A stretch of DNA of 27,585 nt from a virus. The stretch spans positions 1 to 27,585 of IMG/VR virus record IMGVR_UViG_3300021964_000411; one strand, given 5' to 3'. Under the pieces are notes generated by a model. That model saw only the letters and a program-made list of their open reading frames with translations. It searched no databases and was not told the DNA's origin. Positions within the stretch are counted from its first letter, which is position 1. Every line of letters begins with the position of its first letter. A program made the translations under genes and the position numbers. Below are positions 1-25,501 of this stretch, piece by piece.

Positions 1-116
1 GTATCAAACTCTAAACCCTCACGAGTTAGTTGAGTTTCACCCATGTTAGCATCTACTGATGTTTTATCTGAACTTAATATGTAAGATGCACCGTAGTTGT
101 AATTATTTCCGGGCAT
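1..116 (-). CDS. Start of an unidentified phage gene, cut by the window edge
   Basis: Only the first 38 codons are visible; the gene continues to the left. It begins with ATG at 116, preceded by AGGAG at a good distance (sequence gataggagaataac before the ATG), nine bases after the stop of the 605-residue gene, so it belongs to the same leftward packaging and virion unit. The visible N-terminus, starting MPGNNYNYGASYILSSDK, is polar and rich in Asn, Ser and Thr, with no signal peptide or membrane segment. I do not recognise it. Its place after the large terminase suggests a virion or head-assembly gene, but this is context only. Confidence 0.7.
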   Translation of the reverse strand, partial: MPGNNYNYGASYILSSDKTSVDANMGETQLTREGLEFD

Positions 117-125
117 GTTATTCTC

Positions 126-1943
126 CTATCTATCTAAAAATCCACCAAGGCTATAATTTGTACCCATACCACGCCCTGTCATAGCACGGGTCATACCAGA
201 TAAGAAACCTTCTTCAGGTTCTTGTTCTTGTATTTCTTCTCCTACGGCTTCTACTGCTGGTTTAACAACAGCTTCTGCTATACCATAGGGAGTTAATTCT
301 TCTTTTACAGTTGTACCGATTGCTTCTAGAGTCGTTGCACCAGCTTTCTTTTGTTCTGCAAAAGTGAAAGCTACTGCTGCTGGACCAAAAGCTAATGCAC
401 CTATTGCTTTCTTACCTGTTTTTCCTAATATTTCTAACAACCCATCTGCCATGCCTTTAGCATTGAAGCCTTTTGATTCTAAACTAGCGCGGGCTTCGGG
501 GTTAGATGTAGGAGTTGTGTCGTCAGTAGGTTTTTTTTGTTCGGACACTTGAGTTTGTTTTTGTTCTAGCGATTCTTGTTGTTTTAATTTTTCCTGCTTC
601 GCCTGTATTAACTGCGTCTCCATCTGTTCTTTAGATAGTTCCATAAAAGTACCAGAAGCCTGTGGGTCTATCGTTATGGATGTAGGAGTTATAACTTTAT
701 CTGAAAAAGAAATGCCTTGTGATTTTTGTTCAACTACCTGCTGGAGATGAACAGGAAGTTTTGAAACTCCATCTGCAGTTACTGTGTATCTTTGAGTAAA
801 TGGAGATACTTGAGTTACTCCTACATCAGAAAGAAATTGTCCGTGAGTTAATACGGGGTTATTATTAGCATCTAGTGTTTTATTTCCCTCTGTAAGAAGC
901 ACGTAGGGTTCAAAAGCTTTAGCATTAGCTTCTTCGATTGCGCCTGACGCATCTATTACCGCCTGATACTTCTGAACGTTTCCTGATGGGGGTCGCCAAG
1001 TGAGGGCTTTACGAACTATATTATCATCGTCATACCCTTTTGAACTAAGAGAAGTTTCCATTATACGACGATAATCATAGAAAGTAAAATCTTGTTTAAT
1101 GTACTCCCCCGTACTTTCTTGAAGATATTCTATCTGAGGGATTGCTGAGTTTTTTAGTGCGTCGGAAATAACAGTCGTTGCTTTATTGGCGTTGCTAAAA
1201 ACCAAACCAGAAGTTTTGTCGCCTATCACAGACTTTATTATATCTCTCTGTGCGCTAGGAAGATAACCAATAGGTACACTCCTAGTTTTTTTACTAGCCT
1301 TGCCACCTGTGGGGGCATCCGTCTTTAATTCTAAATCTTTTACTAACCCTGTTTCAAAATTAATATTCTCTATTCTTAAATTACTGAAATCTGCTTTTCT
1401 ATACCCGCCTAGCATGGACATAAGCATCATGCCACCTGCTTCTTTAGTAGCAGGATTTGACATCAGGGCAGCAGCTATACGTTTAGACTCGGTATATACT
1501 TCAACAGGAAACTGTAAGGGTATGAGTCTACTTATATCTGACGTAAATCCAGCGTTCGTATATGCCGCTTCTCCTACTGCACTTTTTATTCTAGTTCGTA
1601 GAGGATTTTCTGTTTTTGCACCTAACACTCCTACTTCGGCTAGAATGCCTTTAAAATCTCCTATGAAACTATCAACAGGATTAGAAAATCCTTGTTTCAC
1701 TACATTCTCATACATCGTATTTGCAGCGGGTGTATTATCTGCAATGTCGCCCAGAGTAACGGCAGAAGCCCCTATACTTTCTGCTACCTTTAGCTTTCTA
1801 GCCTTTACAGAATCTGAAATATCTGCCCTATTATTTATAACATCAATAATAGTAACTTTACGAAGGGCCTCTGGTCGTGTATCCCCGCCCTCTGTAATCT
1901 GATTGATAAAATCTTCTTTAAACTTAGGTGCTTTAACTGCCAT
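126..1943 (-). CDS. 605-aa protein with tyrosine recombinase-like domain and long C-terminal extension
   Basis: Residues about 160-330 read like the catalytic domain of a tyrosine recombinase. GGYRKADFSNLR (179-190) matches the ArgI box (GlRrgEllnL), with R182. A basic hairpin GGKASKKTRSVPI (213-225) supplies the lysine, LVFS (247-250) matches the LF-P strand, and FYDYRRIMETSL (288-299) matches hxLRrtfat with R292, Tyr289 standing where His is usual. W316 lies where LGH is usual (Trp also in Cre), and KYQAV gives Tyr326 as nucleophile, ten residues after W316. Residues 80-155 are helical and could be a core-binding domain. The remaining 280 residues are unlike integrases: a Gln/Lys-rich coiled coil (436-470), a Pro/Thr linker, then an Ala/Gly-rich hydrophobic stretch (510-565). 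The start directly abuts the TAG of the large terminase (coupled translation). It could be a true integrase or resolvase, or a virion protein that has co-opted the fold. Confidence 0.72.
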   Translation of the reverse strand: MAVKAPKFKEDFINQITEGGDTRPEALRKVTIIDVINNRADISDSVKARKLKVAESIGASAVTLGDIADNTPAANTMYENVVKQGFSNPVDSFIGDFKGILAEVGVLGAKTENPLRTRIKSAVGEAAYTNAGFTSDISRLIPLQFPVEVYTESKRIAAALMSNPATKEAGGMMLMSMLGGYRKADFSNLRIENINFETGLVKDLELKTDAPTGGKASKKTRSVPIGYLPSAQRDIIKSVIGDKTSGLVFSNANKATTVISDALKNSAIPQIEYLQESTGEYIKQDFTFYDYRRIMETSLSSKGYDDDNIVRKALTWRPPSGNVQKYQAVIDASGAIEEANAKAFEPYVLLTEGNKTLDANNNPVLTHGQFLSDVGVTQVSPFTQRYTVTADGVSKLPVHLQQVVEQKSQGISFSDKVITPTSITIDPQASGTFMELSKEQMETQLIQAKQEKLKQQESLEQKQTQVSEQKKPTDDTTPTSNPEARASLESKGFNAKGMADGLLEILGKTGKKAIGALAFGPAAVAFTFAEQKKAGATTLEAIGTTVKEELTPYGIAEAVVKPAVEAVGEEIQEQEPEEGFLSGMTRAMTGRGMGTNYSLGGFLDR

Positions 1944-3638
1944 CTAATATCCAAATGTGGAATCGAAAGGTTGAAATGCTTGGTCTTTTATGCCTTGCAA
2001 AGTTTTGTGAATTGATGTATAACCACTAGTACGTGTCATAACCATATAACGGAGTGCATCGTATGCGTGGTCTTCAGCTTTTGTATCAACGTCTTCACTA
2101 TTGGTTTTGGACAGCGGAATACCTGACATCTGTGCGACAGTGTGTTTACAAGTTGCGAAGATTCGTAAACGTGGTTCTTTGGTATACGGGTCGTCCGATA
2201 GTCTTCTATGTAATTCCATTTTCCCTTGTAGTCTATTTCGGTCTGATGGTGTCCACCTGACACCTGCCCGCATCATAGTTTCTGCAATGGATGGTCCGAA
2301 GCCTGTTTTGTTCCAACAGGAAGAGTCTAAGACATTATAGTGGGGAAGAGGGTCTAACTCTTCCATTTCTAGTATTTTATCAGCCAGTTGTTCTGCTGTC
2401 AAGTGTTTTACGTATAATTCACGATAAACCCAAATATTGTTATCCCAATCAATAGCACCCCACAGTACACAAGAAGGCGACGCATAACCATAATCTGCTG
2501 CGCGTATTCTAGGCCAGTTAGTTGGTAAATCAAAAGGTTCGACAACATGTCGTCTCCGTGAAAACTCTGGGAACGCAGCACCATCCGCTACATCCCAATC
2601 TCCTTCTAGTAAGCGACGACGTTCTACATCTGGTAGTGAACGAAGCATAGCCTCGTATTGTCCGTCTGCCATCAGGTAAGGGTTGTCTGTTAGTCTGGCG
2701 GGTACGAACTTGCGGTAAAATAATGGTTTACCTGCTTTCTCGTGTCCCTCAGGCCAAACGAAAGGTCTACCTGTTTCTAGGTCTGCTGCAGGGAACGGCT
2801 TGTTGTGTTCCCCTACATCTATGTACATCTTCTTGACCCACCAGCCGCCAACACCACCGGGGTTAGCTGTGCATCGCATACAAAGGTTCTTCTGCAACTC
2901 TGGGTCTGTAGAACGAAGACGTGACCTTAGGTAGTCCCAGACGTAACTGGTAGGATACTGTGTTATTTCATCCACGCCAATCCAGTTAAAAGCCTGTCCT
3001 TGGAAACGAGTTACGTCCTTATCTCTATCGAGATAGGTAAACCAGATTGTTGCGCCACTAGGGAATACCCATGTGGACTTCGACTCTCTAAATGTAGCAC
3101 CGGGGAAAGCCTTGGTGTATAACTGCTTAGACTTGTCTATAAGTTCGGTAAGTTCATCCAAGGTGCGACGGAGAAGAAGGCCACGATGGTTAGGATTATG
3201 ACAGTACCGAAGAGGGTCAGCAAGGAGGGCAAAACTCTTACCTCCGCCCGCTGCACCGCCGTAGAGGACATCTTGTTCCGGTGCGGAAAGAAACTCCTCC
3301 TGAGGTCCTTCGTTTGGTTTGAATATAACGGGTGTATCATCAATTATCTCTTGCACGGTTGCCGGGAGATTGGCAACATCATCCATATCTACGACACGAG
3401 TATCTTTCTGGTTTAACGCAGATTCAACTTTCTTCGCACTTTTCTTTAGCTTACGTGCATAGCTTGCTTTGTCTTGCGACTTCTTTTGTAATTTCTCTTT
3501 GGCTTTCTCTGCTTTGCGAACCCGTGCCTGTAAAGCACGTCTAGCACGTTCTGCCCTAGAGAGGTTGTATACTGCCTTTGGTGCGTTGGGGTCCTTCTTG
3601 GGTCTTCCCCGTGGCTTTTTTGGCGTTTGTTCTGTCAT
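1944..3638 (-). CDS. terL: Terminase large subunit
   Basis: ATP-driven DNA packaging motor and headful or end-cutting nuclease, acting at the procapsid portal. Walker A is GGAAGGGKS (127-135), Walker B GVDE (221-224), and the coupling motif CTANPGG lies at about 256-262. The C-terminal RNase H-like nuclease has D382 (AADYGY), D438 (VLDSS) and the usual DHAYDALRY (523-531). At 564 residues it is slightly long because of an unusual N-terminus: residues 7-15 contain an AT-hook-like KPRGRPKK, and residues 27-72 are a very basic, probably coiled-coil helix. Start is ATG 3638 after a weak GGGAAC; it follows the 119-residue gene by 20 bases and runs directly into the recombinase-like gene. The terminase call is certain; the packaging mode is not visible. 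Confidence 0.96.
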   Translation of the reverse strand: MTEQTPKKPRGRPKKDPNAPKAVYNLSRAERARRALQARVRKAEKAKEKLQKKSQDKASYARKLKKSAKKVESALNQKDTRVVDMDDVANLPATVQEIIDDTPVIFKPNEGPQEEFLSAPEQDVLYGGAAGGGKSFALLADPLRYCHNPNHRGLLLRRTLDELTELIDKSKQLYTKAFPGATFRESKSTWVFPSGATIWFTYLDRDKDVTRFQGQAFNWIGVDEITQYPTSYVWDYLRSRLRSTDPELQKNLCMRCTANPGGVGGWWVKKMYIDVGEHNKPFPAADLETGRPFVWPEGHEKAGKPLFYRKFVPARLTDNPYLMADGQYEAMLRSLPDVERRRLLEGDWDVADGAAFPEFSRRRHVVEPFDLPTNWPRIRAADYGYASPSCVLWGAIDWDNNIWVYRELYVKHLTAEQLADKILEMEELDPLPHYNVLDSSCWNKTGFGPSIAETMMRAGVRWTPSDRNRLQGKMELHRRLSDDPYTKEPRLRIFATCKHTVAQMSGIPLSKTNSEDVDTKAEDHAYDALRYMVMTRTSGYTSIHKTLQGIKDQAFQPFDSTFGY

Positions 3639-3658
3639 TGGGTAGTTCCCTAGGCCAC

Positions 3659-4018
3659 TCAGCCATTTTTTTCCGACGAACTTGTAGCGGGTCTGCCTCT
3701 ATAGTCTGTTCCTCTAGATAAAGGCGGTTTGCGAGTAGGTATAGCTTGTCCTATGTCCGGATTATACCGTTTAGTTGTCGCTGGCCTAGATGGTTTATCA
3801 CTAAGCATACCAATACCTAACTCTTTATCTAAAATTCTATCAAAATTGGTAGGGTCAAATACCATTACAGTATTTAATGTGCTATCTTTTTTGACTGCAG
3901 GAATTAAACCTTTATCTTTAGCCCGGTCATATCGTTTTTTATTTTTTACAGATAGATTATCGTAATCTTTTTTTGTTACTTTACTAAAATTTTCATTAAA
4001 TTCTTTAATACTATCCAT
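3659..4018 (-). CDS. Hypothetical protein between terminase subunits
   Basis: 119 residues, not recognised. It is very polar and Lys/Arg/Asp-rich: an N-terminal helical part (1-45) rich in Lys and Asn, a short hydrophobic strand VMVFDPTNFDRIL (51-63), and a Pro/Arg/Ser-rich, probably disordered tail. The start (ATG 4018) overlaps the last 8 bases of the small terminase gene, with GAGG nine bases upstream, so it is translationally coupled. Position between the small and large subunits suggests a packaging accessory role, but no family supports that. Confidence 0.75.
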   Translation of the reverse strand: MDSIKEFNENFSKVTKKDYDNLSVKNKKRYDRAKDKGLIPAVKKDSTLNTVMVFDPTNFDRILDKELGIGMLSDKPSRPATTKRYNPDIGQAIPTRKPPLSRGTDYRGRPATSSSEKNG

Positions 4019-4409
4019 CGATTATTACCTCTTTCTTCGGTGGCAACAATACCACCCCATGTATTGCCTGAACGTTGTGGTTCATTGTCTCTTGTTTGCC
4101 CAAACCAACCCGGTTGAGTATGGCTTCGGCTGCACGTAGCTTCAAATCATCACCCCGTTCGACTACAGGTGTGTCAACTAGTTCTACCATCTTGTTGGCT
4201 GCCCGCAAACTATGCCCTGCCAACACCGCACGGGTGCGTTCGACTATCTCGTCGGCTAACGAGTCGCGCAACCATGTTACGGAACCCACAGAATACCCCG
4301 CAACTTCAGCAGCCCTGTTGAAATTACCGTTGTTTTCGAACAAGGCTGTCAGGAACGTCTCCTGTTTTTCGGATAATTTCTTTTTAGGTGTCTGTTGTAC
4401 AAGATTCAT
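4011..4409 (-). CDS. terS: Terminase small subunit (putative)
   Basis: Recognises phage DNA for packaging and hands it to the large subunit. The N-terminus, KLSEKQETFLTALFEN then NFNRAAEVAGYS (about 11-40), is the typical helix-turn-helix of small terminases. Residues 98-113 (DDLKLRAAEAILNRVGLG) match the usual KLRAAExILdraG segment in front of the C-terminal tail. Length 132 residues is normal for this group. It lies two genes before the large subunit. ATG 4409 has no clear Shine-Dalgarno (preceded by a run of C), and there is no better start. It is transcribed from the consensus promoter at 4520-4548, giving a leader of about 100 bases that holds one copy of the TGTTGCYGGGAA repeat. Confidence 0.85.
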   Translation of the reverse strand: MNLVQQTPKKKLSEKQETFLTALFENNGNFNRAAEVAGYSVGSVTWLRDSLADEIVERTRAVLAGHSLRAANKMVELVDTPVVERGDDLKLRAAEAILNRVGLGKQETMNHNVQAIHGVVLLPPKKEVIIDG

Positions 4410-4519
4410 GGGGGTTTTCCGTTGCTATGTTGCTGGGAAGCGTATCGAAGACTCTAATTGTAAGGAAAATTGCTTTGAATATCGGGGTCGTTCGCTGTTT
4501 TGCAACCCCAGCAATACCA

Positions 4520-4548
4520 ATTATAGGGTTAAGAACGAGTTATGTCAA
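4520..4548 (-). promoter_or_regulatory. Consensus sigma-70 promoter, leftward (terminase unit)
   Basis: On the minus strand the -35 is TTGACA (4548-4543) and the -10 is TATAAT (4525-4520), with exactly 17 bases between: a perfect consensus. Start would be near 4513, about 100 bases before terS. Just upstream are CCTAGAAATAA and an A-rich tract that could act as an UP element. It should be read by host RNA polymerase without phage factors unless repressed. Confidence 0.85.
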
Positions 4549-4599
4549 CAGGTTATCCTAGAAATAATAAAAAAAATTACGTGGGGTGCATTTTAGGGG

Positions 4600-4628
4600 T
4601 TGACAGAATTGAAATACGACCCTACAAT
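4600..4628 (+). promoter_or_regulatory. Strong sigma-70 promoter, rightward, with no gene in front
   Basis: TTGACA (4600-4605), 17-base spacer, TACAAT (4623-4628). Five of six -10 bases and all -35 bases match consensus. It diverges from the terminase promoter, with the -35 boxes 51 bases apart. The next rightward gene starts at 10255, beyond 5 kb of opposing genes and terminators, so the product is probably a short RNA. Confidence 0.75.
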
Positions 4629-4634
4629 GGCTTA

Positions 4635-4850
4635 TCAGCCGCAGGGTAAACCCCCATATAGCCGTGGGGTAACTGTAGGGCTACCTAATAGTGTTGCCGG
4701 GAAGCTAACCATGGGGTTAGCCCTACGATGTTGCCGGGAATACCATACAGATAACTCCAAAACATAGAAAATATGTCGGGATTGCTAGCAAATGCTGGGG
4801 TACCCCCCGTGTCCCATGCGTGCGGGCGCATTGATTTTATTTATTTTTTA
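4635..4850 (+). ncRNA. Candidate small non-coding RNA
   Basis: Inferred from the promoter at 4600-4628 and the terminator at 4816-4850, giving about 215 bases. The stretch contains the GCTAACC/GGTTAGC hairpin, the GTAGGGCTA/TAGCCCTAC inverted repeat and two copies of TGTTGCCGGGAA. No reading frame with a ribosome-binding site starts inside it. No known RNA family was recognised. It could instead be priming RNA for replication, or antisense or sponge RNA. Confidence 0.45.
4816..4850 (+). terminator. Rho-independent terminator, rightward
   Basis: Stem ATGCG (4816-4820) with CGCAT (4827-4831), six-base loop, followed by a T-rich tract tgattttatttatttttta to 4850. The stem is short, so strength is uncertain. 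A second, weaker GC-rich stem, CGCGC/GCGCG (4936-4940 with 4953-4957) followed by TTTTG, lies further on. Confidence 0.55.
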
Positions 4851-5100
4851 TATCAAGTCTCTGTTACAGACAAGACAGAGCATCCCCAACCATCAACCCC
4901 GCCAACACCGCCAAGCTAACCCTATAACTAACACCCGCGCCCGCCCGCACGTGCGCGTTTTGTCATTTGTCATAGTTAATCGATATGGTTAAGGATAATA
5001 ATAGCCCTGTTGATATCATATAATATAGCCTACAAGGTCAAACCAAACGCCCCAAAACCTAGGGATATCAACCGATTGATTATTATTCTGATTAATAGGC

Positions 5101-5131
5101 AAAGAAAAACCCGCCAGACTAACAAGCGGGT
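5101..5131 (-). terminator. Rho-independent terminator of the leftward early genes
   Basis: On the minus strand the stem ACCCGC/GCGGGT (5126-5131 with 5109-5114; 11-base loop) is followed by TTTTTCTTT (5109-5101). It lies 34 bases past the stop of the 79-residue gene and separates the early block from the packaging unit. Confidence 0.8.
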
Positions 5132-5164
5132 GATTCCTTACAAGTTCGCGGGATAGTTAGAAAA

Positions 5165-5404
5165 TTATTTCTTTTCGAATCTAGCTTTAATCTCTGGGAT
5201 ATCTGCCAACGTTTTAACGTTTTGACTCCATGAATCGCTATCGAATCCACTATTCACAACATAGCTTTTTAAAAGGTCTGCTTGTGCGGATAAAGCCATT
5301 GATAACCTATAGACATGATTAAGAGTCTCAAGGGGAACCGTAGATAACTTTTTTGCTTGTTCTTCGGTTTCGATTACATATTGAATATTGTTCTTTTTAT
5401 TCAT
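5165..5404 (-). CDS. Hypothetical protein, last gene of the leftward early block
   Basis: 79 residues, not recognised. It is mostly helical and soluble: a short strand QYVIETEEQAKKL (8-20), then an amphipathic helix VYRLSMALSAQADLLKSYVV (31-50) and a polar C-terminus. The start ATG 5404 has AAAGGAAA upstream at good spacing. It follows the winged-helix-like gene by 18 bases and is followed by a Rho-independent terminator, so it shares the DUF932-like operon. Confidence 0.72.
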   Translation of the reverse strand: MNKKNNIQYVIETEEQAKKLSTVPLETLNHVYRLSMALSAQADLLKSYVVNSGFDSDSWSQNVKTLADIPEIKARFEKK

Positions 5405-5422
5405 TGTTTTGTTTCCTTTCTA

Positions 5423-5812
5423 TTATGCTGATTTCTTGACTGGCTGACCATCCGCGCCAGTCTTAACTCGGTAAACTTTACGATAGCCGACTGCTTTAAT
5501 AGACTGCTTCTCTACCTCATAAACCCTACCAATTCTATACAAGCCACTTTTAACAGATTCATAACTAGCCTTAGTTATTCCAACCAGTGCGGGGACTGAT
5601 TCGAAATTACCTAAAGATAGGATTTCGACTATCCTCCTTTCATTAGCTTTCAATTTGATGATTGATTCTTCTGCTACCTTTTCCGATATGTGTTCGGTGC
5701 TAGCTTCTAAATCTATAATTTGGCTTCTGATATCTTCAACCGCCCATTTGATACGCCTAGTTGCATCGTTTAAGGTGTCTAGTAGGTTAATTAATGTTTC
5801 TTGGTTTTTCAT
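5423..5812 (-). CDS. Small protein with coiled coil and winged-helix-like C-terminus
   Basis: 129 residues from ATG 5812, chosen because AAGGA precedes it; an in-frame ATG at 5869 would add 19 residues without a ribosome-binding site. Residues about 5-50 form a helical, probably coiled-coil segment. Residues 53-110 (ANERRIVEILSLG, then VGITKASYESVKSGLYRI, then a hydrophobic strand YRKVYRV) look like a helix-turn-helix with a wing, as in MarR- or phage-type regulators. Function as DNA-binding regulator is an inference from this pattern. It lies in the middle of the DUF932-like operon, with a 9-bp inverted repeat (5871-5894) just upstream. Confidence 0.68.
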   Translation of the reverse strand: MKNQETLINLLDTLNDATRRIKWAVEDIRSQIIDLEASTEHISEKVAEESIIKLKANERRIVEILSLGNFESVPALVGITKASYESVKSGLYRIGRVYEVEKQSIKAVGYRKVYRVKTGADGQPVKKSA

Positions 5813-5870
5813 CGTTTTTTTTCCTTCTTTTACGATTAATTGATAAATACTGCATAAATGATTAAGCATA

Positions 5871-5894
5871 ATAGGACAACGGTAATTGTCCTAT
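5871..5894. repeat. Perfect 9-bp inverted repeat
   Basis: ATAGGACAA (5871-5879), six-base spacer, TTGTCCTAT (5886-5894), in the gap between the DUF932-like gene and the winged-helix-like gene. There is no T tract on either side, so it is more likely an operator or RNA-processing hairpin than a terminator. Confidence 0.7.
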
Positions 5895-5915
5895 ATATGA
5901 CGTAAAGTGCTTCCA

Positions 5916-6899
5916 TTAAGCGGTTACTCCTTCCAATGCCCGCCAACTATCTGAGGTTATAACATCGCGAACCATATTGGAACGCATACGCTGGGTATCA
6001 TGTTGTTTCTGGTTTTTCTTAGAACGTTTAGTTTCAAGGGTATGGGTTGACCAATGAGTAAGGGCATTATATCCCGCGAACATGGTTTCCCCTAGTTCGA
6101 TAGTTTCTTCCTTGTACTGGTCGCAAAGTGTATCCATCAACCCTTTATTAACTGCGGGTCGTTGTACATCGTCGAAGCGGTCTGATGCCTTCTCTTCTCT
6201 CTTGCAGATAGTATCCGCCAAGATATCGGAAAACTGATTGAGGGATAAACCCGCACCCGTCCATCTGTTTAACTGGTCGCGCTGATTAGTGAATAAATCC
6301 AACGATAACACCGCCTTATTTGTTAGTGCTTCCGTATCCAGATTGCGGGTGTGTTTCTTCTTTTGGTGATATGATTTCTCGCCACCGAATACGAGGGTAT
6401 TACGGCATAAGTCACGATAAGCACCGCTAAAAACTTGAAAACTCCAACTCTTATCGATGCTATTATAGACATCTAGACGAGGTGTAACTGTGTCGTGTGC
6501 TGCCCTACTGTTTACTTCACTAGTCATATCAGGAAAATAAATAGTGCGATGCGCTTTCTTTCCGCCTTCGAATATCCTGTCTATTACCCGCATCCGCTGA
6601 CCGCCTAGCTGACTGCCCGCCAATTGTTGCGCCTGTTTTGCGAACACTACTTCGTGATGCACTAGATTATATGTATCTTTGTATGGGTTCATATCTAGTA
6701 ATTCGTTCATACTACGATTGAACAAACCAAAATATTTAGGCATCTCTTGCGGTAGCCCGTCAATATCCGCCAGAATCTGAACTGGTTCAAATACACATTT
6801 ACTTGCATACAAGCTAACGTCCCGTGGGTCGCTAGTTTCATATTCTAGACCATCTCGAATGGGTACAAAGTCTGATTGAAAATTGATGATATCTAACAT
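5916..6899 (-). CDS. DUF932-like phage/plasmid protein
   Basis: 327 residues. The general organisation and the C-terminal segment MFAGYNALTHWSTHTLETKR (about 271-290) resemble DUF932 proteins, common in phages and plasmids and of unknown biochemical role; some lie near recombination or replication genes. The central region carries FQVFSGAYRDLCRNTLVFGG (about 154-173), which fits the conserved C-x-N segment of the family. No membrane segments. ATG 6899 has AAAGGA at good spacing. Upstream is a hairpin GCGGGA-ttat-TCCCGC (6930-6945) in the leader and then the terminator of the previous operon. Family assignment is by eye. Confidence 0.65.
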   Translation of the reverse strand: MLDIINFQSDFVPIRDGLEYETSDPRDVSLYASKCVFEPVQILADIDGLPQEMPKYFGLFNRSMNELLDMNPYKDTYNLVHHEVVFAKQAQQLAGSQLGGQRMRVIDRIFEGGKKAHRTIYFPDMTSEVNSRAAHDTVTPRLDVYNSIDKSWSFQVFSGAYRDLCRNTLVFGGEKSYHQKKKHTRNLDTEALTNKAVLSLDLFTNQRDQLNRWTGAGLSLNQFSDILADTICKREEKASDRFDDVQRPAVNKGLMDTLCDQYKEETIELGETMFAGYNALTHWSTHTLETKRSKKNQKQHDTQRMRSNMVRDVITSDSWRALEGVTA

Positions 6900-7129
6900 G
6901 ATTTTTCCTTTCCTATGTTAGTAATGTTCGCGGGATTATTCCCGCCAGTGAATCTAAACACATATAAACAGATAAAACAACAGAAAAAAACAGATAAAAA
7001 AAACGGGCAATCAATCGAAAAAAACGAAAGGAAAAAATAATTGATTGCCCGCTACCATCCCGCCTAGTGGAGTGCAAGCGGGATAATAATTGATAATAAA
7101 AAGTAGTTAGCGTGGCGTTTTTGTCATGG
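6900..7129. other. Intergenic gap with terminator and three hairpins
   Basis: Three inverted repeats in 230 bases: GCGGGA-ttat-TCCCGC (6930-6945), the 12-bp terminator stem (7004-7051) and ATCCCGC/GCGGGAT (7057-7063 with 7078-7084). A GCGTTTTTGTCATGGTTAAT stretch (7115-7134) resembles the motif found in the two main control regions. No clear promoter for the DUF932-like gene was found, so readthrough or a phage-specific promoter may be used. Confidence 0.65.
6996..7051 (-). terminator. Rho-independent terminator after the Gp88-family gene
   Basis: Perfect 12-bp stem CGGGCAATCAAT/ATTGATTGCCCG (7004-7015 with 7040-7051), 24-base loop, followed on the minus strand by eight T (7003-6996) and more T runs. 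This is the strongest terminator in the window. Confidence 0.85.
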
Positions 7130-7816
7130 TTAATGGGTAATGAATAAGACCTGCTGTTCTGGTTGTTCCCAACATAAAGCACAATTGGCACAATTTGGAG
7201 TTGCGCCAGTTTGTTCAGGACAGATAAACGCCTCGCCTTTTACTGGCTGTTTTTTATCTGCGGATATTGCAGAAAATTTAATATCAATCGCATCAGAAAA
7301 ACGCACATTAAAACGATGCCTAAATAAGGCGTTGGTAAATTGTAACTCGTTACCGATAGGGCTAGTGGGACTATTTCCCGTATATCCCCAGACTGCTAAA
7401 TTGTCGTGTTTACCTAGCAAAGTTGCCCAGTGTTTAACATATCCAGCAGAATAGAAATCACCTAGCACGTGCAAGCGCACAATAACGCCTTTATATATAC
7501 TGCATAGTTCCTCTAGTTCGATATCTAGTTTCTGTTCTAGTTCTTGCCCGTGTTCTATACGGTGCGCGAATGCCATATTATTACCGTAACAATCATCCCA
7601 ATGAAAACATTCACGGGGACAGGTTGCCCGTTCTTCTAGTGTTAAGGTGTAGATAACATAGCCCTTAAACTTGCCCTTTTTAACTACAGGCAACCGCCCC
7701 TTGTCTGCTATCTTCATGTTTCTAGACTGCTTTAAAACTGTTTTAGATTCGGCAACAGTTCTGCGGGCTTTTAAATACATAGTATGATTTGGTTTATCAA
7801 TATCCGCTTTTCTCAT
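7130..7816 (-). CDS. Gp88-family phage protein, Cys-rich
   Basis: 228 residues resembling the phage Gp88 family (first named in mycobacteriophages; biochemical role unknown to me). N-terminal cysteine cluster ATCPRECFHWDDCYG (65-77; C66, C70, C76), central RLHVLGDFYSAGYVKHW (114-130), YTGNSPTS (145-152), and a C-terminal cluster CPEQTGATPNCANCALCW (199-216; C199, C209, C212, C215). The 3+4 cysteine pattern suggests metal or iron-sulfur binding (inference). ATG 7816 has AAAGGA nine bases upstream and overlaps the zinc-ribbon gene by 20 bases. It ends the operon and is followed by a strong terminator. Confidence 0.75.
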   Translation of the reverse strand: MRKADIDKPNHTMYLKARRTVAESKTVLKQSRNMKIADKGRLPVVKKGKFKGYVIYTLTLEERATCPRECFHWDDCYGNNMAFAHRIEHGQELEQKLDIELEELCSIYKGVIVRLHVLGDFYSAGYVKHWATLLGKHDNLAVWGYTGNSPTSPIGNELQFTNALFRHRFNVRFSDAIDIKFSAISADKKQPVKGEAFICPEQTGATPNCANCALCWEQPEQQVLFITH

Positions 7817-11049: not shown

Positions 11050-12250
11050 ACATCAGGTGTTAGGCTACATGCTTAACCACGAGTTTTACAATAAGGTAAA
11101 GAACATTGTTAGTAGGGACATGTTCGCGGGGCGCGACTCTACAATATTTGATGCAGTTACTTACGCACACAAACAATACAACATAGACATCCACCCTAGG
11201 CAGTTATCTGCCGTGGTTGCTGACCGCAATCCCGCCATGCCAAATAGCGCAGTGATAGAAATATATAGTATAATAGACAACCTATCGGTGAACATGTCTT
11301 CTCAGATGTCCCTCGAACTTGATGTGGTGAAGAATTTCTGGGTACGAGACAAAGCACGTCAGATTGGCGAACGTGCGATTGCTATATTCACAGGCGAATC
11401 GGAACACTTCGGGGAACTGAAGACGTTGATTGACATGGTTGAAGATGGTAGGATGACGGACAAGACTACCTATAGTGAGATGGATAAGGGGTTCTCGCAG
11501 TTGGTCGATGAGGAAGTTGGAGAACCTGACTTCCCTTTTGGTTGGGATTTGTTGTCTGAGAATTTGGCGGGCATGGACAGGGGCAACCTTGGTATCTTGT
11601 TTGCTAGACCAGAGGTAGGCAAGACCACGTTCTGTGCGTTTCTTTGTGCGAACTACCTGCGACACAAACAGAAAGTGGTGTACTGGGCTAACGAAGAACC
11701 TGCTGAGAAAATAAAGTTACGCATCATACAGTCTTACTTTGAACGTACACGACAACAAATGTCTGAGGAACGACATGAGTTGGAAAAGAGATACACAGAA
11801 GAGGTAGAACCTTACTTAACTGTGATGGACTCTGTGGGTACATCTATGGAAGAACTAAATGATTATGCCCAGCTAAACGAACCAGATGTTATGTTCTGTG
11901 ACCAGTTGGATAAGTTCCGAATCGGTGGCGAGTTTAATCGTGGTGATGAGAGACTTAAAGAGATATATGTAACGGCACGTGAGATTGCCAAGCGCAACAA
12001 ACTATTGCTGTGGTCTGTTAGTCAGGCAAGCTTCGAGGCACATGACCGCCAGTTCATCGACTACTCTATGTTAGATGGTTCACGAACTGGTAAGGCAGGG
12101 GAAGCGGATGTGATTATTGGTATAGGTAAGACGGGTAGTTCAGAGGAAGAGAACACTGCACGACACATTTGTATTTCTAAGAATAAGTTGAATGGGTGGC
12201 ACGGAATGTTTACCAGTCACATCGATGTGCATACGGGGGTGTACTATTAA
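11012..12250 (+). CDS. Replicative DNA helicase, DnaB type
   Basis: Hexameric 5'-3' helicase that unwinds the fork and works with the primase. Residues 10-95 resemble the DnaB N-terminal domain (EHQVLGYMLNHEFYNKV). RecA-like core: Walker A RPEVGKTT (199-206), NEEP (227-230) with the catalytic glutamate, Walker B DVMFCDQLD (292-300), and SVSQ (335-338) as the DNA-binding/sensor motif. 412 residues, normal for phage DnaB-like helicases. ATG 11012 follows AAGGA. Ends TAATG, overlapping the exonuclease start by one base. Confidence 0.93.
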   Translation: MTQENGHSQNTLEHQVLGYMLNHEFYNKVKNIVSRDMFAGRDSTIFDAVTYAHKQYNIDIHPRQLSAVVADRNPAMPNSAVIEIYSIIDNLSVNMSSQMSLELDVVKNFWVRDKARQIGERAIAIFTGESEHFGELKTLIDMVEDGRMTDKTTYSEMDKGFSQLVDEEVGEPDFPFGWDLLSENLAGMDRGNLGILFARPEVGKTTFCAFLCANYLRHKQKVVYWANEEPAEKIKLRIIQSYFERTRQQMSEERHELEKRYTEEVEPYLTVMDSVGTSMEELNDYAQLNEPDVMFCDQLDKFRIGGEFNRGDERLKEIYVTAREIAKRNKLLLWSVSQASFEAHDRQFIDYSMLDGSRTGKAGEADVIIGIGKTGSSEEENTARHICISKNKLNGWHGMFTSHIDVHTGVYY

Positions 12251-12828
12251 TGAACATCCTAACGTTTGATGTGGAAACAACCCACAAGGAAAAACCCAAC
12301 GGGTCTACCACTCCCCTGCCCTACTTTGGCAACATGCTAGTATCCATAGGGTATAAGTGGCTAGATGAAGAACAGGTATTCTACGACTGTTACTACCACA
12401 GTACAGAAGCACCAACACCTAATGCGTTTCAAGACTTTCAAGCTGCCTTGAACTATGCGGATATCATAATCGGACACAACATCAAGTTCGATTTATCTTG
12501 GATACGCGAATCAAACTTTACATATGAAGGACACGTTTATGATACGATGGTTGCAGAGTATATTCTATCGAAAGCAAGAAACTGGGCTTTGTCACTTGCT
12601 TCTGTTGCAGAGAAGTATGGTGGAGTGCAAAAGGAGAAAGACCTCATTACGCCCTACTTCAAAGAGGGCAAGACTTTCTATGATATACCGTGGGATACGA
12701 TAGTGGAGTATGGTATAGCTGACGTACTGGCTACAGAACAAGTAGCCCTAGAACAACTCAAAGCCTTTGGCACAACGTTCGAGGAGATATTTGATGACGC
12801 TAATACCGACATTGCGTCTGTCGCTTGA
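12250..12828 (+). CDS. 3'-5' exonuclease (proofreading domain as separate gene)
   Basis: 192 residues, a DEDD-type proofreading exonuclease equal to the exonuclease domain of family A DNA polymerases. Exo I LTFDVETT (4-11; D7, E9), Exo II GHNIKFDLSW (75-84; D81), Exo III YGIAD (154-158; Y154, D158). An upstream in-frame ATG at 12196 would overlap the helicase by 54 bases; 12250 is preferred because Exo I then lies at the normal distance from the N-terminus. The polymerase gene begins inside its last 35 bases in another frame, so the two halves of the usual polymerase are translated separately and probably associate. Confidence 0.9.
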   Translation: MNILTFDVETTHKEKPNGSTTPLPYFGNMLVSIGYKWLDEEQVFYDCYYHSTEAPTPNAFQDFQAALNYADIIIGHNIKFDLSWIRESNFTYEGHVYDTMVAEYILSKARNWALSLASVAEKYGGVQKEKDLITPYFKEGKTFYDIPWDTIVEYGIADVLATEQVALEQLKAFGTTFEEIFDDANTDIASVA

Positions 12829-14332
12829 GATGACAGAAGTTCTATCTGAAATAGAACGTAACGGAATAAAAATAAATTACAAAACCTTGATGGATATCAG
12901 GGACGAGTACGAACAGGAGATGTTTATACTCGAACGCAGACTAAACGAACTAGCCGCGAATGCAATGGGGGACACACCTGTTAACCTTGACAGCCCTGAC
13001 GATAGGTCGATGCTGTTGTACTCTTGCCGTGTTGCTGACAAAAGGGAATGGGCTACCATATTCAACTTGGGACACGAGATGCGGGGTGCAACTAAGAAGC
13101 CCAAGCAAAGACGACGCATGAGTGATGCTGAGTTTAAACGGACTGTGGTGCGGGAGACAGACGTTATCTACAAGACACGTGGTTCACAATGTTCGAACTG
13201 CATGGGTAAGGGACGCTTCAACCCCTTGCGTAAGGATGGCACAGTAGGTAAGGCTGTTCGTATCTGCAAGACTTGTAACGGGTTAGGGGTAGTTTATGAA
13301 AGCACTGGCGAGGTTGCGGGCTTCAAGGTTATTCCCCGTGACACCTATGATGTTGCAGCAGGGGGCTTCAAGACGGACAAAACCACGTTGAGTGATTTGT
13401 CACTGGCGTTGCGTGGTGACGCACAAGAGTTTGCCAAGGGGTACGTTCGCTACTCCGCCCTGCGAACATATCTACGTTCATTCATTGAGGGCATAAACAA
13501 TAATCTAGACCCTAATCACTGTATACATACAGAGTACATGCAGTGCATCACAGCAACGGGTAGGCTGTCTAGTCGCAACCCAAACTTCCAGAACATGCCA
13601 CGCGGTTCTACGTTTGCAATTCGCAAAGCTATTGAAAGCAGGTTCGAGGGCGGGTCTATCTTGGAAGGTGACTACGCACAGTTGGAGTTTCGTGTTGCGG
13701 GCTTTCTTGCCAGTGATGACAACATACGTCTTGATGTAGAAGCGGGAACGGATGTGCATAGTTATACAGCAAGCATCATAGGTTGTAGTAGACAAGATGC
13801 CAAGGCACATACCTTCAAGCCCCTGTATGGTGGCGTTAGTGGCACAGATAATCAGCAACGCTACTACCGTGCATTCAAGCAGAAGTATGTGGAAGTTACT
13901 GAGTGGCACAAGAAACTACAGAAGGATGCGGTAACTAAGAAGGAGATAACATTACCATCAGGCAGGGCTTACTGCTTCCCCGATTCCAAGTGGACTAAGT
14001 ATGGTACGGCTACTAACCGTACTGCTATCTGCAACTACCCCGTTCAGGGATTTGCTACCGCAGACCTACTGCCCATATCTTTAATCGGTATTCACAGACG
14101 CATGAAGAAGCTAGGCATGAAGTCTGTGATATGCAACACAGTACATGACTCTATCGTGTTAGACGTGTACCCGTCAGAAGAACAGCAATGTATAGATGTG
14201 ATGGTAGAAGCTATGTTGTCCTTGCCAGAGGAGACAGAACGTAGGTATGGAGTCAGATATGACATGCCTATCGGTATAGAATTAAAAATGGGAAAAAACT
14301 GGCTTGACTTAGAACCTGTTTATGAGGTATAA
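12794..14332 (+). CDS. Family A DNA polymerase with half DnaJ-type zinc finger
   Basis: Replicative polymerase, 512 residues. Start ATG 12794 has AGGAG at 12782-12786 with a 7-base gap; upstream 12767 lacks this. Residues 2-28 match the family A segment that follows the exonuclease domain. Then comes an insertion with CSNCMGKG (133-140) and CKTCNGLG (158-165), half of a DnaJ zinc finger. Palm and fingers: motif A GDYAQLEFR (292-300; D293), motif B RQDAKAHTF then PLYGG (333-347; K337, Y345), motif C VHDS (450-453; D452). Phe341 occupies the position of E. coli Pol I F762. I recall SAR116 phage HMO-2011 polymerase having the same DnaJ-like insertion, which is the main taxonomic clue. Confidence 0.94.
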   Translation: MTLIPTLRLSLEMTEVLSEIERNGIKINYKTLMDIRDEYEQEMFILERRLNELAANAMGDTPVNLDSPDDRSMLLYSCRVADKREWATIFNLGHEMRGATKKPKQRRRMSDAEFKRTVVRETDVIYKTRGSQCSNCMGKGRFNPLRKDGTVGKAVRICKTCNGLGVVYESTGEVAGFKVIPRDTYDVAAGGFKTDKTTLSDLSLALRGDAQEFAKGYVRYSALRTYLRSFIEGINNNLDPNHCIHTEYMQCITATGRLSSRNPNFQNMPRGSTFAIRKAIESRFEGGSILEGDYAQLEFRVAGFLASDDNIRLDVEAGTDVHSYTASIIGCSRQDAKAHTFKPLYGGVSGTDNQQRYYRAFKQKYVEVTEWHKKLQKDAVTKKEITLPSGRAYCFPDSKWTKYGTATNRTAICNYPVQGFATADLLPISLIGIHRRMKKLGMKSVICNTVHDSIVLDVYPSEEQQCIDVMVEAMLSLPEETERRYGVRYDMPIGIELKMGKNWLDLEPVYEV

Positions 14333-20509: not shown

Positions 20510-20763
20510 CCCATATTCTTTTCGATAGCAGACTGTCTCTTCTTCTCATAGCTAGACATCTTGCCGTCCTTATCTAGGTCGCCAACCATCTTACCTTTTG
20601 CCATCTTCTTCTTCATGGTTCCCCCGTACATCATGCCTTGCTGCATACCTTGCTGGCGCGGGGCCATTGGGTTAGCTGACATCATCATGTCACCGCCCAT
20701 TTGCATAGGTTTGCGAACCATCGAACCGTAGGCATAGTGTTTCTTATTATTTTTGTTCTTCAT
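20506..20763 (-). CDS. Met/Gly-rich small protein with EF-hand-like loop
   Basis: 85 residues, 16 of them Met. The N-terminal two thirds is low complexity (MQMGGDMMMSANPMAPRQQG and on). Residues 62-73, DLDKDGKMSSYE, match the 12-residue calcium-binding EF-hand loop (DxDxDGxoxxxE) exactly, followed by a helix EKKRQSAIEKN. I recall similar Met/Gly-rich proteins in other marine phages, function unknown. GAGGAA precedes ATG 20763; it overlaps the end of the 1584-residue gene by 17 bases and is the last gene of the virion block. Confidence 0.78.
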   Translation of the reverse strand: MKNKNNKKHYAYGSMVRKPMQMGGDMMMSANPMAPRQQGMQQGMMYGGTMKKKMAKGKMVGDLDKDGKMSSYEKKRQSAIEKNMG

Positions 20764-23700
20764 TGGTTTCTTCCTCTTCTAAGTATTGGTCTACATAATT
20801 AGTTAAAGTCTCTTCTAGTCCATATCTAGCTACCTCAGTTGCAAAAAACTCAGTTAGTAATGTATCGAACGCGTTTAACTCTTTCTTCGTAACCAGCTTC
20901 GGGTATCTAAGCATCTTTTCCATTATTCGGGCAGCGTCTTTACTCTGCAGGGCTAACAGCATCACGTCTGAGTTGTGTTTTTGCATTAATCTTAATGTAA
21001 CTTCTGTTACAACATAGGAAGGACTAACCATTCCTCTAGCTATATTATACGCCCTACTGATAGCTTCGTTCGTTGACATCCCTTTTGAACCAAGTTGAAC
21101 AGCTAAGTTAGCAGCCTGTTGTCTTGCTAAGTAAAAGAATATACCGTGTAGGTTTTCTATCTGCTCTCTAGGCATTACCTTTTCTAAGTTCTTAACAACT
21201 TCAGGATTTTCTAATTCTGCCAAAGCACCTATAACATTTTCAAAACCGTGAGTAACTATAGGTTCTTGAAGAAGACCCCTTTTAATTTGTTCTTGTTTTA
21301 AGTCTACATCTATCTCACGCAAATCAGTTGCTGCCAATCTTCCTTTAGGTCCATAGCCTCCTTTTTGAATAAGACCTTGATAGGTCATATTATATACTGC
21401 GTTATCGAATATGGTATCTAAATCTGCACCTTTTAATTCTGGGTCTTCAGATATAACTTCTTTAAATTTAGAACGAACAGAATCTAAATCCCCCATACCA
21501 GAAATATATCGTTCATAAAACGAACCAGAATCTTTTATATTTATAATATCTTCTAAGACTTTCATAGACTTTTTAGAATAGTCTGCTTCTATTTTAGCTT
21601 CACCTTTAGCTTCTGACAAAGTACGTTTTAATTTTTCTACAGCCCTCTTACCTGTGTTGTAATTCGTGTTACCTTTTGCTATTAATTTAGCTATGTCTTT
21701 TTCTCTAGAAACCATGTCGGTTATATTAAATACAAGAACTTGGTCAGGGTTTCCGTCTAAGTCTGTAACGTTAATATTAAATATTTCGTTTATTTCATCT
21801 AGTTCATCTATAATAGATTGTTTAAAACCCAGATTTCTAGGGTCAACTCTCTGACCTATGGTGGGTGCCTTGGATAAGAAATCAGCAGCCCACGCGTCGT
21901 ACACGATAGCTTCTATGACTTCTTCCATTAATTCTAAAGCTACCCGACCTTCTTCTGTATTTAAGTTTATTCTCATCTGCCCTGTATTTTTATCAGGAAC
22001 ACCAAATAGTTGTTCTAGGCCCGCTATCTGATTTCTCAAATTTCCAATAGCTTCTGTCTTTCCTCGTCCACCACCCATGATTTTGGCAACAGACTTGCCC
22101 ATGTCACCCATAACATCTATAGGTGTTGCACCTTTATACAAACCACTAAGACCTGTTGAATCCTCTGTAACTTTATCTCCTGTTTTAGATGACAAAATTC
22201 TGTTTAGAACACTGCCGGGTCTATTAGGGTCATTTTTCTGTTGGTATATCTTCCTCACCTTTAAAAGAAACTCGTGACCTACAGGGTCATTTTCTTTCAT
22301 TATGTCATCAACAAGTTCTGTGAATTGACTGTATTCTCTAGAAACAGCAGGGTTAGTTGTCTTGTATCCGTAATCTCTAAAAGCCCGTCTAAATTCTTCT
22401 ATCTCTTCTATATTTGCATTTGCAAACACATTTGCAGAACCCGTCTTGTGTAATAATAATCCAAACTGAGTAGGGCTTTGTTTTGCTATACTCGTTATTT
22501 CCTCTGCAGTAATTCTTCCCCCGCTTGCTTCTACTATAGAAGTAATCATCTCCTGAACTTCTTCTTCAGAGAAAGTATTCATGGTGCGTTCGACCATTGC
22601 TTCGAACATCTTACGAGATTTTCTACCCAAGTAACCCCCGAAGAAGGTGGACGTAGGACTAAAGAACTTTTCTATATCTGATATTTCATCTCCTGCAAGA
22701 CGTAACATCTCAGTAACTACAGGAGATATATCTATGTTTGGTCTGTCAGTTGTTTTTACAAACTCTCTGAACCCCTCGTATGCCTCGTCCATCTCTAAAG
22801 CTAAAACACCTTGTCTTTGAAATATTAATGCTTCAACTGCTGTAGATAAGTTGTTTCTGTGCAAATCTTTTTTGTTTCGTATTGACCTTATCGTTTTAAA
22901 ACGACTTAATAAATCTTGTTGAGTTTGTAATATCAACTCACGTGATTCTTCTACTGAAGCAACATCTCCTGCCAAAGTTTTAGAGGTATTAAGAGATAAT
23001 CTTTTAGAGATGATGTTTTTTATTTCTACGTAATCTTCCAAGAATGTTTCTGGTAATGGTTCAGAAATGTCTGATACTGTGTCGGAAATCATAGCATCTA
23101 CGTGGGTATTTAATTTATTAAACTCCAAGTCCATAAACTTCTGAACATTTGTTAAACTGGATTCTGTTTGTTTTAATAATTCTCTCACAGCCCCTACCTG
23201 TTGAGGATTTGCAAATTCTGCGGCATGTTTTTGAAATCCTTGAATTAGTAACTGTCCTCTAGATGCAACTCTATCTACCTCTAAGGCAGCTTCTAACATA
23301 CTTCCTAAACCACCTTTCTTCGCTTTTTTTACACTTGCTGTTTGTGCAGCCATCTGATAAGCTGCAATAGCCATAGGTAGACCTGATATTTCAGCAAGCG
23401 ATTGATTGAGTATTTCTGCTGCTTTTGCCCTTTCAGCACCTTCGGGGAACATTTTTAAAAGTTCATCTTCTAGGTTTCTCTGTTCCTGTACTATGTTTAA
23501 AAAAGAATCCCTTGTATTTTCATCCATTTTTTCTATTTGCTTAAAGGCTGCAGAGATTTGCTTTCGTTCTAAAACTGTTAGCTTTCTATCTAGATACAAT
23601 TTCTCATAGTCGTCAATTGTCAAATCTTGCTGTGTTAGTTTCCTAAACATGTATCCAAAGGGGCTGAGTTTTCCTTGTGTATCCCAAGCTGTAATTCCTG

Positions 23701-25501
23701 CTGCACCTAAACCTATAGCTTTCTGAGTAACTCCAACACCTAGCCGTGTTACAAACTTACTACCACCAGTTATCTCTCCAAACAACCCTACACCTAGCCC
23801 AAATAACTCAGCGGTTTCTGCGTCCATACCGTATACACCATCTAAAAATTGTCTAGATGCTACTGCAGCAGTTGCCAAACGAATATCTGCACCTGCTACT
23901 TCGAGTACGTAAGGACTTACTTTATTTCTTAAAAAATTTCTAGTGTTTAGACGATACAAGTTATCGGCTTCTGCTTGTAATCTTATCTTTTCTTGGTTGC
24001 TTATTCCAACCTGTCTAGATTGCTTCATCAAGTCATCTGCCCTAGTTTTTGCCTCGCTAGTCTGCCTTGCTATTTCTTTGTTGTACGTACCTAACTCTAT
24101 GAGGTCTTTATCTAGTTTTACTTTTTTGTCGTAGTAAAGGGCTAATCTTTGAACATCTACTAAAGATACGTTTTTTCCCATATTAAGAGTATCACGAATT
24201 TTTATTGCCCTGTTTGCTTCCTCTACTGACCTTGCATTTTTAGTTTTTCCTAAAATAGTACCACCAAAAAAGTTCTCAGCAAGTATAACTCCCCACTGTT
24301 CTACTGCATTCATCTGAGAAAATGATTCTTCTACTACTGCATAGGCTGTAGCATCGTCAATAAACTGACGTTCTGTTTTCTGACCATCTAGAGTTGTTTC
24401 GTATACAAAGTTATCAAACTGTTCTTGCGTAAGTTTTCCTTCGGCTAGGTCTTTCTTAGCCCTGTCTCGTATTAGGTCATTCATACCCATAGCTAGAGTA
24501 GGTGCTGGTATAAAACGGTCTATATCCCTGAGTATATTATCCGTTCTTTGTTGGCGGTCATCGGATAATGCATTCCACTCTTCTTTAAAAGATGTTTGCA
24601 AATCAAATGCCCGTCGCATTGCTTCCATAGCACTTCCTGCGTAGTCTGCAGCGTAGTTAGGAAGAACGACTGCTGCCCTGCCTGTTTCGTTAAGTCGGGT
24701 TGTTAGATTTGATAAGAAGTCGCCCGTAGCCATCTCATCTATAAAAAACTGCCTTACTGCTACATCAACATCAGGTCTTCCTGTATTGACTATAGGTCTT
24801 AGAACATCATCTAATTTCTTGCGGCCTTTGGCGTATTCATCTGCTAGGGGGCGCACATCAGGGTCTAGATAGCTAGTATCTATTTCCCCTGTTTCAGATA
24901 CGAAAGCAATTGTGGGGTCTGTGGGTGCTGTTTCTTCTCGTCTTTGTCTTTTTAAGGATTCTTGCAAGGCAAGATTTAGTTTTATTTGTTTAGTAAATTC
25001 GGGTGTTCTAGCAAGTTTCGCTGCATTTGGACCGGAGTATCTTTTTGTACCCTCGTAAGTCTCTATAACTACTGTTTCACCAGCATCTAATTTAGCTAGT
25101 ACATCAGCATATGTTGTAACTTTAGTTGCTTCTTCCTCTCTTCTAGCTATATCTTCTTGTGCAGCTAGTCTTTTAAACTTAATGGGAGATGCTTCAACAA
25201 CAGCTTCCGCAACTTGTTTACCTGCAGTAATTGCTTCGCCTACACTTGTAGGTGTTTTTACATCCGGTAGTTTAGGTTTTGTTTTTGTTACTTGAACCTG
25301 ACTAGGCACACTAGCTTTAGGGTCGGGTTTTAATTCTACATTGACAGGTCTAATATCAACACGAGGTATGCCCTCTTCTGTTATAGTAGCAGGGCTATCG
25401 TCTAATTCTAATTCTCCTGCCGCAATTCTTTCGCCAACAGTTTGCTGCGTATCTTGATTTTCTTCTTCGTCAAGTACCACGGGAGTAGGTTGCTTCGCCA
25501 T
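20747..25501 (-). CDS. Very large putative internal virion protein
   Basis: 1584 residues. No catalytic motif recognised, and no lysozyme-like ExxxS found. The N-terminal 100 residues are acidic and Pro/Thr-rich, probably disordered; the rest is almost all helical with many charged heptads. The only hydrophobic region is about 530-606, Gly-rich (ELFGLGVGLFGEITGG and so on), which could insert into a membrane. Size, helical content, one hydrophobic patch and position at the end of the virion block match ejected internal proteins of T7-like phages (gp15/gp16 analogues), but there is no direct similarity. Starts one base after the stop of the 677-residue gene. Confidence 0.72.
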   Translation of the reverse strand: MAKQPTPVVLDEEENQDTQQTVGERIAAGELELDDSPATITEEGIPRVDIRPVNVELKPDPKASVPSQVQVTKTKPKLPDVKTPTSVGEAITAGKQVAEAVVEASPIKFKRLAAQEDIARREEEATKVTTYADVLAKLDAGETVVIETYEGTKRYSGPNAAKLARTPEFTKQIKLNLALQESLKRQRREETAPTDPTIAFVSETGEIDTSYLDPDVRPLADEYAKGRKKLDDVLRPIVNTGRPDVDVAVRQFFIDEMATGDFLSNLTTRLNETGRAAVVLPNYAADYAGSAMEAMRRAFDLQTSFKEEWNALSDDRQQRTDNILRDIDRFIPAPTLAMGMNDLIRDRAKKDLAEGKLTQEQFDNFVYETTLDGQKTERQFIDDATAYAVVEESFSQMNAVEQWGVILAENFFGGTILGKTKNARSVEEANRAIKIRDTLNMGKNVSLVDVQRLALYYDKKVKLDKDLIELGTYNKEIARQTSEAKTRADDLMKQSRQVGISNQEKIRLQAEADNLYRLNTRNFLRNKVSPYVLEVAGADIRLATAAVASRQFLDGVYGMDAETAELFGLGVGLFGEITGGSKFVTRLGVGVTQKAIGLGAAGITAWDTQGKLSPFGYMFRKLTQQDLTIDDYEKLYLDRKLTVLERKQISAAFKQIEKMDENTRDSFLNIVQEQRNLEDELLKMFPEGAERAKAAEILNQSLAEISGLPMAIAAYQMAAQTASVKKAKKGGLGSMLEAALEVDRVASRGQLLIQGFQKHAAEFANPQQVGAVRELLKQTESSLTNVQKFMDLEFNKLNTHVDAMISDTVSDISEPLPETFLEDYVEIKNIISKRLSLNTSKTLAGDVASVEESRELILQTQQDLLSRFKTIRSIRNKKDLHRNNLSTAVEALIFQRQGVLALEMDEAYEGFREFVKTTDRPNIDISPVVTEMLRLAGDEISDIEKFFSPTSTFFGGYLGRKSRKMFEAMVERTMNTFSEEEVQEMITSIVEASGGRITAEEITSIAKQSPTQFGLLLHKTGSANVFANANIEEIEEFRRAFRDYGYKTTNPAVSREYSQFTELVDDIMKENDPVGHEFLLKVRKIYQQKNDPNRPGSVLNRILSSKTGDKVTEDSTGLSGLYKGATPIDVMGDMGKSVAKIMGGGRGKTEAIGNLRNQIAGLEQLFGVPDKNTGQMRINLNTEEGRVALELMEEVIEAIVYDAWAADFLSKAPTIGQRVDPRNLGFKQSIIDELDEINEIFNINVTDLDGNPDQVLVFNITDMVSREKDIAKLIAKGNTNYNTGKRAVEKLKRTLSEAKGEAKIEADYSKKSMKVLEDIINIKDSGSFYERYISGMGDLDSVRSKFKEVISEDPELKGADLDTIFDNAVYNMTYQGLIQKGGYGPKGRLAATDLREIDVDLKQEQIKRGLLQEPIVTHGFENVIGALAELENPEVVKNLEKVMPREQIENLHGIFFYLARQQAANLAVQLGSKGMSTNEAISRAYNIARGMVSPSYVVTEVTLRLMQKHNSDVMLLALQSKDAARIMEKMLRYPKLVTKKELNAFDTLLTEFFATEVARYGLEETLTNYVDQYLEEEETNEEQK

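Follow-up and report, generated by a model that had tools for sequence, protein, structure and literature searches.

Location of the recombinase gene

What does an apparent tyrosine recombinase do directly beside the large terminase gene of a phage? This question is raised by one end of the window, i.e., the whole stretch of 27,585 nucleotides analysed here (IMG/VR record IMGVR_UViG_3300021964_000411). The gene concerned (126-1943, minus strand) encodes 605 amino acids, and its ATG follows directly on the stop codon of terL (1944-3638, minus strand; phrog_979, E 1e-63), its upstream neighbour, such that the coupling to terL described in a first-pass annotation of this DNA is borne out. A probable gene for the small terminase subunit (phrog_51, E 0.0015) is situated at 4011-4409 on the same strand. 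On the other side, the window end cuts a small, conserved ORF encoding about 70 aa, of which only the start is present (1-116, minus strand) and which in relatives is located between the recombinase and portal genes.

The TerL of the window reaches an identity of at most about 56% with that of cultured HMO-2011-type phages. Its DNA polymerase, nearest to that of HTVC033P (45%), contains a DnaJ-type zinc motif, a feature typical of these phages (PMC9038755), which reportedly dominate in the ocean (PMC9038755). In all five HMO-like isolates inspected, the portal gene is found directly after terL or after small ORFs. In the clade of the window (IMG/VR contigs examined with a TerL about 75% or more identical and long enough to contain the flanks), every checkable contig exhibits the order terL, recombinase-type gene (about 520-850 aa), small ORF and portal. 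One such gene each is present in the complete or long contigs G005, G010, G004, G017, G019 and G016, among which G005, G010, G017 and G019 are taken as complete because they possess end repeats.

Outside the terL-portal slot, no member of the recombinase family was found except for one weak match (L133); a mobile gene occurring elsewhere was rejected on these grounds. Four recombinase alleles searched against cultured phages gave no match, and a literature search covering few subscription papers yielded nothing relevant on virion-packaged integrases or on recombinases beside the terminase or in the terL-portal slot. The placement between terL and portal, together with the interchangeable alleles described below, is an unusual and conserved feature. 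Phages that are more distant have other genes in this slot, namely a FAD oxidoreductase (L087:3935-6481), an SGNH hydrolase (L088:5222-6829) or an HNH-like ORF (L086:7388-8044).

Fold and domain organization

The window protein matches PF00589 (Phage_integrase) over residues 153-328 (E 1.3e-6; score 28.7 bits, cut-off 27.1 bits) and, in the PHROGs search, integrase families including phrog_1 (E 8.9e-7). An AlphaFold2 model built on a 37-member alignment has a pLDDT of about 90-97 for the greater part of residues 10-450 (mean of the whole protein 76.9), with a low-confidence loop at residues 209-220. In the PDB, Foldseek ranks tyrosine recombinases as the best matches, and these cover both the core-binding and the catalytic domain. 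A second structural aligner placed the Brujita integrase at Z 10.6 (residues 137-349) and the archaeal Xer protein 4a8e at Z 9.8 (residues 28-348); a Z of about 10 can be common taken alone, but here nearly all of the top rows belong to a single family, in agreement with the sequence evidence. The family profile reaches the XerC-like 4a8e at E 1.4e-8. The fold matches also include MrpR and SroF, and no protelomerase is among those listed, an absence that excludes nothing. For one of the divergent alleles (type 3, see below) the model is of lower confidence (pLDDT 57), its best PDB match still being XerH. Judged by sequence and predicted structure, the gene thus encodes a tyrosine recombinase; the domain that the first-pass annotation had proposed is real, and the fold on which that proposal depended is predicted.

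According to the model and the alignments, the protein comprises a core-binding, N-terminal helical domain (residues about 28-135; 1539-1862, minus strand), a catalytic domain (residues 137-349; 897-1535, minus strand), a long coiled-coil-like helix (residues 427-468; 540-665, minus strand) and a C-terminal tail with a hydrophobic stretch (residues about 515-605; 126-401, minus strand). The 280-residue tail with coiled coil and hydrophobic segment noted earlier is to be corrected in that residues 508-605 are disordered in the model.

Active site

The full-length relatives compared, including the window protein, number 67; as they fall into 11 types, they are not 67 independent tests, although the divergence between types is great (mean column identity in the alignment, 19%). 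All of the residues named in the first-pass annotation for the 605-residue protein (R182, Y289-D-Y-R292, W316 and Y326) are located as given there. Arginine I (R182; 1398-1400, minus strand), with D185 three residues on, and arginine II (R292) are invariant in 67/67 sequences. The nucleophile Y326 (966-968, minus strand) is invariant in the seven type-2 proteins, and a Tyr is present after position 317 in every one of the 67, mostly 9-18 residues on. The loss of R292 or Y326 in homologues, which had been named as evidence against a recombinase, was thus looked for and R292 and a Tyr in this region were found to be retained throughout.

In tyrosine recombinases, His at box II and His or Trp at position III are usual, not universal. 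The Tyr that had been noted in place of this His is indeed situated at the usual His position (Y289-D-Y-R292; 1068-1079, minus strand), such that His-II is absent in the window protein; among the 67 relatives, position 289 is mostly Y, S or A. Concerning position III, a Cre-like Trp had been assumed at W316, which proved to be off by one residue (W316-R317; 993-998, minus strand): the position nine before Y326, matching the GH motif of integrases, is R317, and the enzyme is therefore not Cre-like at this third-last position, although the fold class is shared with Cre. Among the relatives, position 317 is Arg in 41 and His in the remaining 26, and position 316 is mostly Gly.

The catalytic Lys is more likely K207 of an LKTD motif (1323-1325, minus strand) than, as first supposed, a residue of the basic hairpin, which overlaps the low-confidence segment 209-220 of the model. 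K207 is invariant in the seven type-2 proteins, and a profile comparison, not significant as a whole, places it on the EKTK motif found in the integrase of CRP-3. The hairpin retains an alternative in K218/K219, Lys being found at column 218 in 61 of the 67 sequences.

Within recombinase types, dN/dS ranges from 0.07 to 0.53 (0.21 between the window protein, P0001, and that of L002) compared with 0.02-0.09 in TerL, i.e., the recombinase is kept functional yet evolves faster than TerL. Since the catalytic residues are conserved and selection is purifying, an enzyme is favoured, and from its sequence the recombinase is predicted with good confidence to be catalytically active.

Exchange of recombinase alleles

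The main finding of the present analysis, absent from the first-pass annotation, is that this hypervariable gene is swapped as a cassette among otherwise near-identical phages. The alleles form 11 types, some of them without detectable similarity to each other; by profile comparison, their bodies constitute three weakly linked groups (types 0, 5, 6 and 8; types 2, 9 and 10; types 1, 3, 4 and 7). Phage pairs with almost identical DNA on both sides of the gene carry unrelated recombinases. In all of the 56 cross-type pairs with a terL DNA identity of at least 93%, similarity ends at -5 to +17 nt relative to the start of the recombinase gene, an edge that marks the beginning of the divergent gene and not necessarily the point of recombination, because terL is conserved anyway. 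Similarity is regained at -476 to +21 nt relative to the stop codon (median -88; 50 of the 56 pairs, where it could be placed). Correspondingly, pairwise identities of TerL correlate strongly with those of the portal protein (Spearman 0.88) and less so with those of the recombinase (0.45), and only 52% of the pairs with a TerL protein identity of at least 98% share the recombinase type.

The window itself provides an example. L138 matches it with 99.4% over 4015-7469, 96.8% over 1938-3666 and 91.2% over 1-410, whereas the stretch between the latter two (411-1937, minus strand) has no DNA match and is replaced by an unrelated, type-3 recombinase that continues into the same C-terminal tail. L002, on the other hand, possesses the recombinase body of the window (97.3% over 403-1963) with another tail. 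Body and tail are thus exchanged separately, as L138 shares only the tail and L002 only the body.

Two unrelated N-terminal modules of about 140 aa each are situated in front of different recombinase types, the one in L016, L013, L044, L073 and L082, the other in L014 and L035-L037. A second variable spot exists between the small and large terminase genes: the 119-aa ORF found there in the window (3659-4018, minus strand) is also replaced in L138, and the spot varies in other phage pairs too. A role of this small variable ORF as cognate partner of the recombinase was rejected, since the two are not linked: L045 and L046, as well as L004 and L005, share the upstream DNA and differ in the recombinase.

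The last codons of most recombinase alleles contain an inverted repeat whose arms change (e.g., ATTGACAGGGG..CCCCTGTCAAT), as at the 3' ends of the genes in L013, L015, L008, L005 and L070, and synonymous sites are unusually conserved in these codons. The tail of the window (126-270, minus strand) is without a clear palindrome. An RNA hairpin was rejected as explanation, the repeats exhibiting no excess stability (mean z -0.40, compared with -0.28 for internal windows); the repeat is possibly a DNA site or an anchor for exchange.

Integration sites and lifestyle

Some HMO-2011-type phages carry int upstream of their replication genes (PMC9038755), and CRP-3 integrates in tRNA-Met (PMC6918029). 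Subgroups IV-X possess no identifiable lysogeny genes and are perhaps obligately lytic (PMC9038755), a proposal made for int-less subgroups because no lysogeny gene was recognised in them (PMC9038755). The usual view of this phage type as strictly lytic, cited in the first-pass annotation, consequently calls for caution in a group that includes int carriers and a phage, CRP-3, shown to integrate (PMC9038755, PMC6918029); it agrees with the proposal for the int-less subgroups, and it is to such phages that a recombinase is now added.

No HMO-type integrase was found in the clade, including the six complete or long contigs named above, among them the complete relatives G005, G010, G017 and G019. 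Searches for homology to the integrases of CRP-2 and CRP-3 yielded no significant tblastn match in the clade, and the recombinase profile did not match the CRP-3 integrase significantly. A scan for T-arms, which detected the tRNA-Met site of CRP-3 as a control, was applied to eleven clade contigs (four of them complete relatives) and to the incomplete window, and revealed no convincing att site of the tRNA type in any of them. Two further candidates were discarded: a noncoding attP between recombinase and portal, as the gap is occupied by the conserved ORF of about 70 aa, and T-arm motifs inside the recombinase genes, 21 of which were seen where 20.7 are expected.

No prophage was found in the genome_contigs collection, in which marine hosts are under-sampled. 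That search yielded only an HMO-type TerL followed directly by the portal in a Blastopirellula MAG contig; an 863-aa TerL ORF in such a contig (L089:6747-9338) looks intein-interrupted. No repressor was recognised in the complete relatives G005 and G010, an absence that is weakly tested because the PHROG view comprises the best 25 of more than 90 families in each; the Pfam search covered all families of G005 and 25 of the 27 of G010 and gave one HTH_11 match in each of these genomes.

Possible function

The reading tentatively preferred from the sequence data is that the gene is expressed along with the packaging proteins and encodes a site-specific recombinase, capable of catalysis and diversifying in its targets, that serves most likely as an integrase. 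Concerning its parts, integration is a possible role that has to be put forward with reserve, and loading of the recombinase into the virion is rather doubtful. Y326 would cut and rejoin DNA at a specific site, helped by R182, R292, R317 and probably K207, and phage DNA would become integrated or otherwise rearranged. Expressed together with the packaging proteins, whose terL it abuts, the gene would provide a substitute for the integrase that cultured relatives carry near their replication genes. Alleles would differ in their target site, and for this reason, it is proposed, phages gain by exchanging the whole gene: a new target would permit escape from an occupied or missing site and drive the exchange, which may take place by homologous recombination where the flanks are conserved, i.e., in terL on the upstream side and in the tail, the small ORF and portal on the downstream side. 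The C-terminal tail, which can be exchanged on its own, may attach the recombinase to the head or bring about its loading for injection, and action from the virion straight after injection would explain both the late position and the shared tail. The flanking DNA does not co-vary with recombinase type, so any allele-specific site must be situated within the gene itself, in the host or in some other place. Against an integrase speak the odd position in a late operon, the failure to find an attP, a prophage or a repressor, and the absent His-II.

An alternative is an enzyme that, carried in the virion or acting late, closes the injected genome into a circle or resolves concatemers prior to packaging in the manner of Cre or Xer, without lysogeny. 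The coupling to terL beside the portal, the C-terminal tail common to different bodies and the lack of recognised lysogeny genes or attP in complete relatives favour such an activity; however, it needs a phage site that changes with the enzyme, and near-identical flanks with unrelated recombinases contain no co-varying sequence, which renders it unlikely. To be regarded as equally unlikely is a selfish or competition-driven cassette, in which the recombinase promotes its own spread, or targets co-infecting phages or elements of the host, and diversifies under negative frequency-dependent selection. Replacement of whole alleles amid otherwise similar flanks, the modular N-terminal additions and tails, and the HNH-like, FAD-oxidoreductase or SGNH-hydrolase ORFs in the slot of distant phages all speak for it, but the recombinase occurs as one copy in all clade members tested and hence resembles a fixed gene, the boundaries are explained by ordinary homologous recombination within the conserved neighbouring genes, and the family was not found outside its slot apart from the weak exception mentioned. 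A slightly smaller chance is given to a virion-loaded polymorphic system, in which interchangeable specificities with a common loading tail are injected and act on the DNA of host or rival phages under frequency-dependent selection. Least probable is a recombinase fold reused without catalysis as a DNA-binding or structural head protein, an option already named in the first-pass annotation, for which the SPbeta repressor MrpR (PMC10516654), the presence of MrpR and SroF among the fold matches, the late structural neighbourhood and the long extra C-terminal region can be cited, but which is weakened by purifying selection and by the two arginines and the Tyr being kept in 67/67 sequences, MrpR having lost most catalytic residues.

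A conserved and apparently active recombinase in the packaging operon of int-less phages implies that such lifestyle calls need re-examination. Near-identical phages that differ in one recombinase gene constitute a natural experiment on what selects recombinase diversity, and the alleles supply many divergent recombinases for studies of specificity.

Comparison with known recombinases

The window recombinase shares with the CRP-3 integrase (357 aa; HMO-2011-type) the superfamily, the catalytic plan and the wider phage group. There are, however, differences between them: The CRP-3-type integrase is encoded upstream of the replication genes and uses a tRNA-type att site, whereas the window recombinase, which is hypervariable and exceeds it in length by about 250 aa, is located between terL and portal. 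With the simple tyrosine recombinases that are its best fold and profile matches (archaeal XerC-like/XerA and Brujita integrase), it has the core-binding and catalytic domains in common, but identity is low, Tyr is found at His-II and Arg at III, and a coiled coil and tail are added. MrpR and SroF of SPbeta-like phages are likewise phage-encoded and represent the recombinase fold outside the classical int role; MrpR is devoid of most catalytic residues (PMC10516654), whereas the window recombinase keeps both arginines and the Tyr.

Other features of the window

The family-A DNA polymerase is split into an exonuclease (12196-12828, plus strand) and a polymerase part (12767-14332, plus strand), encoded by overlapping ORFs in different frames. 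The same split is present in G004, G005 and G010, whereas CRP-3 possesses one protein of 705 aa; it represents either a conserved split or a programmed frameshift. Two large ORFs at 20747-25501 and 25503-27536 (minus strand) encode proteins of 1584 and 677 aa, respectively, which are without Pfam or PHROG match and only 22-51% and 28-30% identical between relatives; they are perhaps internal virion proteins.
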